Origin: Chloroflexota bacterium
Lineage (GTDB): Bacteria > Chloroflexota > Dehalococcoidia > Lucifugimonadales > JACPQL01
Assembly: GCA_016190445.1 (NCBI GenBank)
Contig: JACPQL010000041.1
Location: 1 to 64,000 of the forward strand
DNA length: 64,000 bases
Direction of reading: 5' to 3'
Shown piece by piece: positions 36,640 through 39,445 of this stretch; the stretch's first letter is position 1; each line of letters starts with the position of its first letter. Under the pieces are notes generated by a model that worked only from the letters and a program-made list of their open reading frames with translations, was not told the origin of the DNA and made no database searches. The translations under genes and the position numbers were made by a program.

Positions 36640-36718
36640 GCGGTCGCCCGAAGGTTGCACGGACCCGTACAGGTGAAAGGAGGCGCCCAAGTGTGCGGAG
36701 GCAGGGCGTCGCCTCATG

Positions 36719-36724
36719 TATAAT
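36719..36724 (+). promoter_or_regulatory. Candidate -10 (TATAAT) for the hypothetical cassette
   Basis: Perfect TATAAT 56 bp upstream of GTG 36780; no clear -35. Confidence 0.4.
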
Positions 36725-36779
36725 GAGCACACGAGGTCGTGAATGAAGCCTAGGCGAGGCCCCCGAAAGGTCGTGAAGC

Positions 36780-37190
36780 GTGACTCAGCAAAAGCCGAAC
36801 CGCGAACAGAGACGGCATCCTAGCCGCGCTGCTGAGCAATTGCCATCACAGATACAGGTCAGCTACATCAACCGCACCGTCTCCCCTGTGCTCCACGCCG
36901 ACGGCGTGTTCGGTGGTCTGACACCACATGGGTTGCTCTATATGGCGTTTTTTTCCGAGCATGCTAAGATTCCCGATAGTGCACAATTGGCCGTGGATAA
37001 GGTGGCCCGGAAAATCAGGCCGGTGCCCCAACCCGATACAGAGTGGGTACGGGAGGTGGGGACGGAAATCATCATGGGTTTGGATCTCGCCCGCTCCTTC
37101 CGGAAATGGCTAGATGACAAGATCAAGCTGATTGAGCAGAATGAGCCAGCCAATACCTTCACTGTAGTCGAAGAGCAACAGCCGTCATGA
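36780..37190 (+). CDS. Hypothetical protein (cassette gene 1), possibly DUF3467-like
   Basis: ORF with GAAAGG before GTG; IQVSYINRTVSPVLHADGVFGGLTPHGLLYMAFFSEHAKIPD...; stop overlaps next ATG (ATGA). Confidence 0.7.
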   Translation: MTQQKPNREQRRHPSRAAEQLPSQIQVSYINRTVSPVLHADGVFGGLTPHGLLYMAFFSEHAKIPDSAQLAVDKVARKIRPVPQPDTEWVREVGTEIIMGLDLARSFRKWLDDKIKLIEQNEPANTFTVVEEQQPS

Positions 37191-37633
37191 CAACAATCAC
37201 GCTTCCACCGCAGCCTAACGAGACTAGAACACGATATAGCAGCTTGTTGCCCATAAGCACAGCCTCCGCTGTAAGTGACGCCTTTCGTGGCTCTGTCATA
37301 TCCCCAACTGCAAGTGTAGTCACGCGCCAAAGAGCCGATCCGCTTCGCGAGCAGTTCCGAGCCTTGGCCGATTGGTGGCATGACGCGACTGATGCCTTGT
37401 CATCTCCGGATGAAAAGGCAGAACATGTAGCTTATCAACGCATTGTCGCCGCAGGTCGCCCAGTGCTACGCTACATCCTCGAAGACTTGCGTGATCGTGG
37501 CGGCCATTGGTTCATGGCGCTTGAGGAAATCACGCATATGGAGCCTCCAATTCCGGACGGCGTGACTCCCAGTCTTCGGGCAGAGAGGGACGCGTGGCTT
37601 TCATGGGGAAAGGCTACGGGCGTTCTTGACTAG
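37187..37633 (+). CDS. Hypothetical protein (cassette gene 2)
   Basis: ATGA overlap with gene 1; conserved-looking HVAYQRIVAAGRPVLRYILEDLRDRGGHWFMALEEITHMEPP. Confidence 0.7.
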   Translation: MTTITLPPQPNETRTRYSSLLPISTASAVSDAFRGSVISPTASVVTRQRADPLREQFRALADWWHDATDALSSPDEKAEHVAYQRIVAAGRPVLRYILEDLRDRGGHWFMALEEITHMEPPIPDGVTPSLRAERDAWLSWGKATGVLD

Positions 37634-37661
37634 CCATCGGCTGAATCTCGGAATCTCCGAT

Positions 37662-38105
37662 ATGCAAGCACGTCAGCACTGGCCGAGTCTCACGCCAGAT
37701 AGCTTCGTTGAAACCAGCCCCGTGGATCCCTTCTACAATTGCGCGGCGCATGCCGCCGACGATAACGATAAACCGTGGTGGCCTTCTCGCGCCCGCCGGT
37801 ACTATTGGCCCCCGGATGTGCCGAGGACCGCACATCTCGCTTCCTTTGAGGCTGCCTATGTCACAAAAGGTTATGAGAGATGTGCCACCCCAGACCTGGA
37901 AGAAGGCGTCGAGAAGATTGCCGTCTATGCTCTTGATGGCGTGCCCAAACATGTTGCTAGGCAACTCGCCAGCGGTCGATGGACAAGTAAGCTCGGCGAC
38001 CTGAAGGACATTGACCATGCTACACTGGACGACCTAGCAGGGCCTTTCTACGGGCATCCCATCCTCTTTATGAGGAGGCCGCGTGCCCAAGAGGATGCCG
38101 GATAA
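37662..38105 (+). CDS. Hypothetical protein (cassette gene 3), DUF7689-like
   Basis: DPFYNCAAHAADDN..WWP..YYWP...GVEKIAVYALDGVPKHVARQLASGRWTSKLGDLKDIDHATLDDL. Confidence 0.7.
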   Translation: MQARQHWPSLTPDSFVETSPVDPFYNCAAHAADDNDKPWWPSRARRYYWPPDVPRTAHLASFEAAYVTKGYERCATPDLEEGVEKIAVYALDGVPKHVARQLASGRWTSKLGDLKDIDHATLDDLAGPFYGHPILFMRRPRAQEDAG

Positions 38106-38256
38106 GCAACCGGAACACGTTAAGCTAGTTCCAGAAGAAAAGTTCAAAGAGGCGTTGAAGCAAGTGCTCTGCACCTCGAAAGTAGAATCTGGCGCTCAAT
38201 TAGCCAACTTCCAGGCTTCGAACAAAGTACGCCGCGAGAAAAAACGCAAACTATAG
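38083..38256 (+). CDS. smORF (cassette gene 4), 57-aa basic hypothetical protein
   Basis: My translation: MPKRMPDKQPEHVKLVPEEKFKEALKQVLCTSKVESGAQLANFQASNKVRREKKRKL*; GAGGAGG just upstream of GTG; 23-nt overlap with gene 3; below the ORF-track cutoff. Confidence 0.6.
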   Translation: MPKRMPDKQPEHVKLVPEEKFKEALKQVLCTSKVESGAQLANFQASNKVRREKKRKL

Positions 38257-38384
38257 CCCTGACCCGATGCTGCGTCAACAATATTATTGCCCTGCGAAGA
38301 CCAAGCGACTGCGGGGTGGCTTGCCGGGCGACCCTGAGGGTAGTCGGCATTCCTGCGGATGCGTCCTGCGCCACGCCGTCCCTC

Positions 38385-38393
38385 TGCTATAAT
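38385..38393 (+). promoter_or_regulatory. Extended -10 TGCTATAAT for xerC-like gene
   Basis: Exact TGCTATAAT 14 nt before ATG. Confidence 0.6.
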
Positions 38394-38407
38394 CAGCCGT
38401 AGCACCC

Positions 38408-39445
38408 ATGGAAAAGCTGTTTGGCGAGTACAAGTCCCACCTGCTGGGGAGCCGTGGGCTCTCCCCTGCCACGGTGCGTAACTACCTGGACGACCTGCAT
38501 CCCTTCAGGGAGTACCTGGCCAGGGAGGGCCTGGAGCCGGAGGCGGGCGTGGAGGCACTGCACGCTTTCCTGCTCCAGGACGGAGAGGCGGGTGTGCCCA
38601 TCCGGTACCGGCGCCTGGTGCGCGACTACCTGGCCTGGCTCATGCAGGGGAGGCCCGTTCAGGAGGGCACTCGGGCCAGGCGGCGCGGCCACGCCCGGGA
38701 CAGTGTCATCCGGATGCTGGTTGCCCTTCGGAGCTTCATGACCTACTGTATCCAGCTAGGCCTGCTGCCGGACGCGCCTATATGGAAGAGGCGCTCCTCC
38801 GCCATGCGCGCACTGATGCCCAAGCGGGAGCGCCGCCTTCCGGACGTCCTCACGCGCAGGGAGGCCGCCGATCTCATGGACGCCGCCGATGGTGGCGGTG
38901 CCGTCGAGCGGCCGCCCGGCCTGCCGGAGCGAGATGCCGCCCTTCTGGAGCTGCTATACTCCAGCGGCCTCCGGGTGAGCGAGGCCTCGGGGCTGGACAT
39001 TGAAAGCCTGAGCCTGTCGGCGCGGGAGGTGCGGGTGCGTGGCAAGGGGAACAAGGAGCGCATGGTGCGGGTGGGCAGGCCCGCAGCCGCTGCCATGGAG
39101 CGCTACCTGGAGAAGGGACGTCCCTTTCTGATCTGCCCCGCATCGGGCGGAGCACTCTTCCTGAACCGGTCAGGGGGACGCCTTTCGCCGCGGAGCATCC
39201 AGAAGCTGGTGAGGCGGTACGCCCTGGCTTCGGGGCTGCGACCCGGCGTGCACCCCCACACGTTGCGTCACAGCTTCGCCACTCACCTGCTGGAGGGTGG
39301 GGCAGACCTGCGAGTCGTCCAGGAGTTGCTGGGCCACAGCAGTCCCCGTACCACGCAGGTGTACACCCACGTTACCCCCGCTGAGGCGCGACGTGTCTAT
39401 CTACAGGCACACCCCAGGGCGAGGGTGGGGGGGGGTGGCACATGA
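38408..39445 (+). CDS. Tyrosine recombinase XerC/XerD family
   Basis: Catalytic residues: SSGLRVSEASGL (R), HPHTLRHSFATHLLEGGADLRVVQELLGHSSPRTTQVYTHV (HxxR..H..Y). Confidence 0.93.
   Translation: MEKLFGEYKSHLLGSRGLSPATVRNYLDDLHPFREYLAREGLEPEAGVEALHAFLLQDGEAGVPIRYRRLVRDYLAWLMQGRPVQEGTRARRRGHARDSVIRMLVALRSFMTYCIQLGLLPDAPIWKRRSSAMRALMPKRERRLPDVLTRREAADLMDAADGGGAVERPPGLPERDAALLELLYSSGLRVSEASGLDIESLSLSAREVRVRGKGNKERMVRVGRPAAAAMERYLEKGRPFLICPASGGALFLNRSGGRLSPRSIQKLVRRYALASGLRPGVHPHTLRHSFATHLLEGGADLRVVQELLGHSSPRTTQVYTHVTPAEARRVYLQAHPRARVGGGGT

Follow-up and report, generated by a model that had tools for sequence, protein, structure and literature searches.

A conserved gene pair encoding a DUF7689 protein with a predicted papain-like fold, and its possible role in biological conflict, in a cassette between topA and xerC of a Chloroflexota bacterium

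What do the four small genes lying between topA and a tyrosine recombinase gene in a Chloroflexota bacterium encode, and do they belong together? They are found in contig JACPQL010000041.1 of assembly GCA_016190445.1, of which positions 1 to 64,000 were analysed and are referred to here as the window. A preliminary description of this DNA had presented them as a four-gene unit. The conserved unit turned out to be smaller. Its core consists of genes 2 and 3, which form a real conserved pair, gene 3 belonging to the family DUF7689; gene 1 is a partner of this pair for which several others can stand in, and gene 4 stands outside it. We consider a conflict or defence role of the pair reasonably likely, and the analysis supports the earlier suggestion of an undescribed system with such a role. 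The features of the locus are as follows.

36780-37190, plus strand: gene 1, 136 amino acids (aa), GTG start; partner protein, candidate sensor or guarded component
37187-37633, plus strand: gene 2, 148 aa, ATG start; may tether or neutralise gene 3
37626-38105, plus strand: gene 3 (DUF7689), 159 aa from TTG 37626, or 147 aa from ATG 37662; candidate protease effector
38083-38256, plus strand: gene 4, 57 aa, GTG start; orphan open reading frame outside the conserved module
36640-38407, no strand: insert of 1.77 kb in an otherwise short topA-xerC gap
38408-39445, plus strand: xerC, resident flanking gene outside the module

The four same-strand open reading frames have the coordinates and lengths first assigned to them, and the two overlaps described, ATGA between genes 1 and 2 and 23 nt between genes 3 and 4, were confirmed.

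The pairing was examined in samples of genomes, many of the relatives being fragmented drafts or metagenome-assembled genomes. DUF7689 matched in 10 of 98 related genomes and gene 2 in the identical 10, a co-occurrence with a chance of about 7e-14 if the genomes were independent, a figure that ignores their kinship. Gene 2 lies immediately 5' of gene 3 in 37 of 39 DUF7689 loci, the exceptions being L070 and the truncated L072, and the spacing between the matched gene 2 and DUF7689 domains ranges from -3 to 52 nt in 36 loci. In L078 the two are separated by about 0.9 kb, where two small genes have been inserted. Of the four families whose co-occurrence had been proposed as a check, genes 2 and 3 thus travel together, gene 1 accompanies them in a minority of cases, and gene 4 does so nowhere; since searches of the 98 related genomes, of the plasmid collection and of the loci examined turned up no relative of gene 4, this gene was excluded from the module. 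DUF7689 is rare in the wider phylum (3 of 299 genomes) and was found in 9 of 248 genomes of the phylum of G392. Seventeen DUF7689 loci come from viral contigs, and several copies lie near phage terminase or portal genes; no gene 3 match was obtained in the plasmid and phage collections searched, nor any gene 2 match in the plasmid collection. Decayed copies, in which DUF7689 carries stop codons or has lost its N-terminus, were also seen in one phylum (loci L077, L078 and L072; genomes G581, G605 and G609).

In the structural model of gene 2, residues ~1-50 form a low-confidence, disordered tail and residues ~51-148 a confident helical C-terminal domain. Most loci encode gene 2 as a small protein of its own. 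Six restriction-modification (R-M) enzymes, however, end in the same helical domain, and a DUF7689 gene follows each of them. Three of these fusions (L018, L019 and L021) consist of Mrr_cat_2, ResIII, helicase and methylase regions followed by the gene 2 domain, the L018 protein matching the PADLOC type IIG model with E 7e-101; the other three (L020, L074 and L075) carry HSDR_N and N6_Mtase before it. In a viral contig (L046:5142-6020) a sigma-70 region 2 is fused ahead of the gene 2 domain. Two readings of gene 2 were abandoned: HEAT repeats, supported neither by Pfam nor by the PDB structure search, and a ribbon-helix-helix N-terminus in L023, which had no Pfam match.

Gene 3 had been described as DUF7689-like, and its membership was confirmed far above the curated cut-off (PF24738, E 4e-35, 121.5 bits against 22.6). 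No described function was found for this family, and a literature search on the term yielded no paper. The AlphaFold2 model of gene 3 has a mean predicted local distance difference test score (pLDDT) of 95 and a predicted template modelling score (pTM) of 0.89, and places Cys39 at the start of a helix, His109 on a strand and His131 at the end of a later strand. Cys39 is kept in all 36 sequences reaching that region, His109 in 36 of 38 and His131 in 36 of 37. In the model, the order of a Cys at a helix start, a His on a strand and then a polar third residue matches the papain-like catalytic pattern. The top PDB neighbours in a Foldseek search, all with weak E-values, were a chlamydial deubiquitinase, NlpC/P60 endopeptidases and a CHAP enzyme; after the first match, the nearest viral models were NlpC/P60, CHAP and lysin-bearing proteins. 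A sequence search of the PDB gave no match. Judging from the model, gene 3 probably has a papain-like (NlpC/P60/CHAP) fold. The many peptidoglycan endopeptidases among these neighbours and the copies on phage contigs would also suit an NlpC/P60-like wall hydrolase, that is, a phage or cell-wall accessory; we regard this as highly improbable, because the partner domain of gene 3 is fused to R-M enzymes, gene 3 is tightly paired with gene 2, and the proteins are small and cytoplasmic-looking, with no export signal evident in the sequence (no predictor was applied).

The position upstream of the pair is occupied by changing partners. Relatives of gene 1 lie immediately 5' of gene 2 in four loci (L022, L044, L047 and L051), and among the 10 relatives with genes 2 and 3 gene 1 is also present in G086 only, where it again overlaps gene 2. 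Most DUF7689 loci lack gene 1 and have another partner or none in this slot. TIGR04255 precedes a stand-alone gene 2 in six loci (L013, L048, L049, L052, L053 and L054; E 3e-23 to 3e-37), and DUF6941 (E 7e-23) does so in L057. A shared family for the partners of 226 and 230 aa in L045 and L071 could not be established. As to the faint DUF3467-like layout attributed to gene 1, a partner of the pair in L050 passes the DUF3467 cut-off, but the gene 1 protein of the window has no Pfam match. Its relative in L051 did not meet the DUF3467 (PF11950) cut-off (E 0.019), and the profile-profile comparison of gene 1 with DUF3467 by hhalign was weak (probability 7.6%), so that from its sequence gene 1 is at best DUF3467-like.

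The same partner families also head operons with other effector candidates. In some operons TIGR04255 comes first, ahead of a 192-aa protein and a HEPN-like one, and in others it leads different small proteins. In L079:1492-3153 the TIGR04255, 192-aa and HEPN-like genes form an overlapping operon, the HEPN-like assignment (E 0.0043) not meeting its cut-off. In two genomes, G059 and G020, a DUF3467-like protein leads a DUF5678 protein and an aspartyl-protease-like protein, in the following operon.

L092 (minus strand) and L093:1447-2562: DUF3467, DUF5678 and aspartyl-protease-like operon, in two relatives

Because partners swap effectors in this way, we interpret gene 3 as the effector and the exchangeable gene 1 as a sensor or guarded component. 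No literature on TIGR04255 was found, and searches on DUF3467 and DUF5678 returned other subjects only. In L080:1483-3119, L084:1495-2813 and L082:595-2241, TIGR04255 occurs with proteins sharing the motifs ENWDGYGA and/or RHxNIxGWP, for which no Pfam family was found among those tested. In the plasmid collection, gene 1 relatives were restricted to Methylorubrum; on the Methylorubrum extorquens AM1 megaplasmid (L091:6043-7050) such a relative shares an overlap with a gene whose product has hydrophobic segments, a second gene of this kind comes next, and these genes are unannotated in the plasmid table.

Gene 3 might alternatively be a non-toxic processing enzyme that cuts or modifies proteins carrying the gene 2 domain and so activates or inactivates the partner, for example an R-M enzyme. 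Protein processing is common among papain-like enzymes, the gene 2 domain sits at the C-terminus of varied enzymes like a cleavable tag, and gene 3 has a conserved Cys and His. We nevertheless find this explanation improbable, as gene 2 is mostly small and stands alone, not joined to any enzyme, and as other proteins, a HEPN-like one among them, also take the third position in operons of the partner families.

How the cassette came to lie at this position was addressed through its composition and its flanks. Its GC content is 0.554, compared with a mean of 0.643 (standard deviation 0.024) for windows of the same length, none of which in the 64 kb is lower; GC at third codon positions is 0.53-0.64 in the cassette, against 0.88 in topA and 0.82 in xerC. 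The lower GC noted earlier is thus the minimum of the window, and this foreign composition supports the view that the DNA was acquired. Of 29 xerC loci from the same order, 25 have a topA match on the upstream side, mostly within about 150 bp; aroQ is usually downstream, and the three genes form a conserved topA-xerC-aroQ block. In the window, topA and xerC are 1.77 kb apart. Because of this conserved synteny, the recombinase is taken as the resident XerC and the cassette as an insert in the gap. The tyrosine recombinase of the preliminary description is therefore present, but it is a chromosomal gene and not an integrase of the cassette, and an integrase-borne mobile cassette was rejected on this ground. 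XerC is the best family for this recombinase, though its score is under the equivalog cut-off of that family. Direct repeats of at least 8 nt were not found at the cassette flanks. In G058 and G028, both from one genus, this gap is filled by a nucleotidyltransferase gene and a HepT-like gene, a pair of the MNT-HEPN type.

L104:2256-2925 and L106:2687-3356, minus strand: NTP_transf_2 (PF01909) and HepT-like (PF01934) pair in the topA-xerC gap, two genomes of one genus

Since such a pair fills the same gap, the gap appears to take up small conflict modules.

This shared slot would also suit a plain toxin-antitoxin, or addiction, pair, in which gene 3 would be the toxin and gene 2 the antitoxin, the variable N-terminal and upstream domains being regulatory only and without dedicated phage sensing. 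Genes 2 and 3 are two small overlapping genes with the candidate antitoxin first, an intact gene 2 adjoins a degraded gene 3 in G581, and the distribution is sporadic and includes phage contigs, all of which would fit. Six large R-M fusions and the swapping of TIGR04255, DUF6941 and DUF3467-like partners, however, exceed what autoregulation would call for, and we judge this reading rather unlikely.

The model that we put forward, tentatively in its full form, is that of an acquired modular conflict system composed of a sensor, a tether and a protease effector. Gene 3 would be the effector, a papain-like cysteine enzyme and most simply a protease. The helical C-terminal domain of gene 2 would bind gene 3 and hold it inactive, while the N-terminal tail of gene 2, or the enzyme fused in its place, would provide the link to a partner. 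In the window this partner would be gene 1, acting as a sensor or guarded protein; elsewhere R-M enzymes, TIGR04255 or DUF6941 proteins would take its role. A phage product disturbing the partner would free gene 3, which would then attack a target in the cell, so that the infected cell is stopped. The model builds on what was observed, namely the strict pairing of genes 2 and 3, the R-M fusions, the exchange of partners, the foreign composition and the papain-like structural model with its conserved Cys and His; binding, enzymatic activity, toxicity, phage trigger and target are inferred. Several observations weigh against this model. On the structural side, no Foldseek match of gene 3 in the PDB fell below 0.001 (best E 0.03), a single viral model, of an unnamed protein, passed 1e-3 (E 6.7e-4), and the gene 2 fold had no solved neighbour in the PDB structure search. 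In addition, L070 has an apparently intact DUF7689 gene without gene 2, genome G089 has an additional gene 2 copy without DUF7689, many loci show no recognisable partner upstream of the pair, and no model of PADLOC-DB 2.0.0 matches genes 1-4.

Some features of the proposed system recall known ones. In EcoprrI-PrrC, a type I R-M system is associated with a guarded anticodon nuclease, and inhibition of the R-M enzyme frees the toxin (PMC12409349). The module resembles it in that a non-R-M effector is attached to an R-M enzyme and, as proposed here, would act upon inhibition of that enzyme. It differs in that PrrC is a tRNA nuclease, whereas here the effector would be papain-like and a helical domain fused at the C-terminus serves as the attachment; the window cassette moreover has no R-M enzyme, the coupling of effector and R-M enzyme being confined to the six homologous loci. 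In Ronin, R-M-like modification subunits are coupled to a short toxin gene, and release of the toxin on inhibition has been proposed (PMC12409349). Here too R-M components are coupled to a short effector gene, a likeness drawn from the description, but the window module lacks a modification subunit. By analogy with these systems, ours is probably anti-phage and guard-like. Type II and MNT-HEPN (type VII) toxin-antitoxin systems are likewise small sporadic two-gene units, and an MNT-HEPN-like pair occupies the same slot in the two relatives; family profile searches, in contrast, assigned none of genes 1-4 to a known toxin or antitoxin family. The ternary conflict systems of Kaur et al. 2020 combine a constant core with variable components and include proteolytic parts (PMC7159879), as the present system appears to do, but no NTPase, EAD or EACC domain met its cut-off here.

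A broader and more speculative interpretation, which we think doubtful as it stands, sees in genes 2 and 3 an immune unit of the plug-in kind, widespread and undescribed. Its transferable helical domain would hold a papain-like protease and could be attached to R-M enzymes or to TIGR04255, DUF6941 or DUF3467-like sensors, making each of them a guarded trap for phage inhibitors. The unit would belong to a larger class, other members of which would use these sensors to drive HEPN-like, aspartic-protease and membrane effectors. Through the R-M fusions, the guard idea is open to a direct test with known anti-restriction proteins. Should the model put forward above be right, it would explain DUF7689, a family without known function; the guards associated with R-M enzymes would gain a protease effector, and sporadic families, TIGR04255 and DUF6941 among them, would be given a function.
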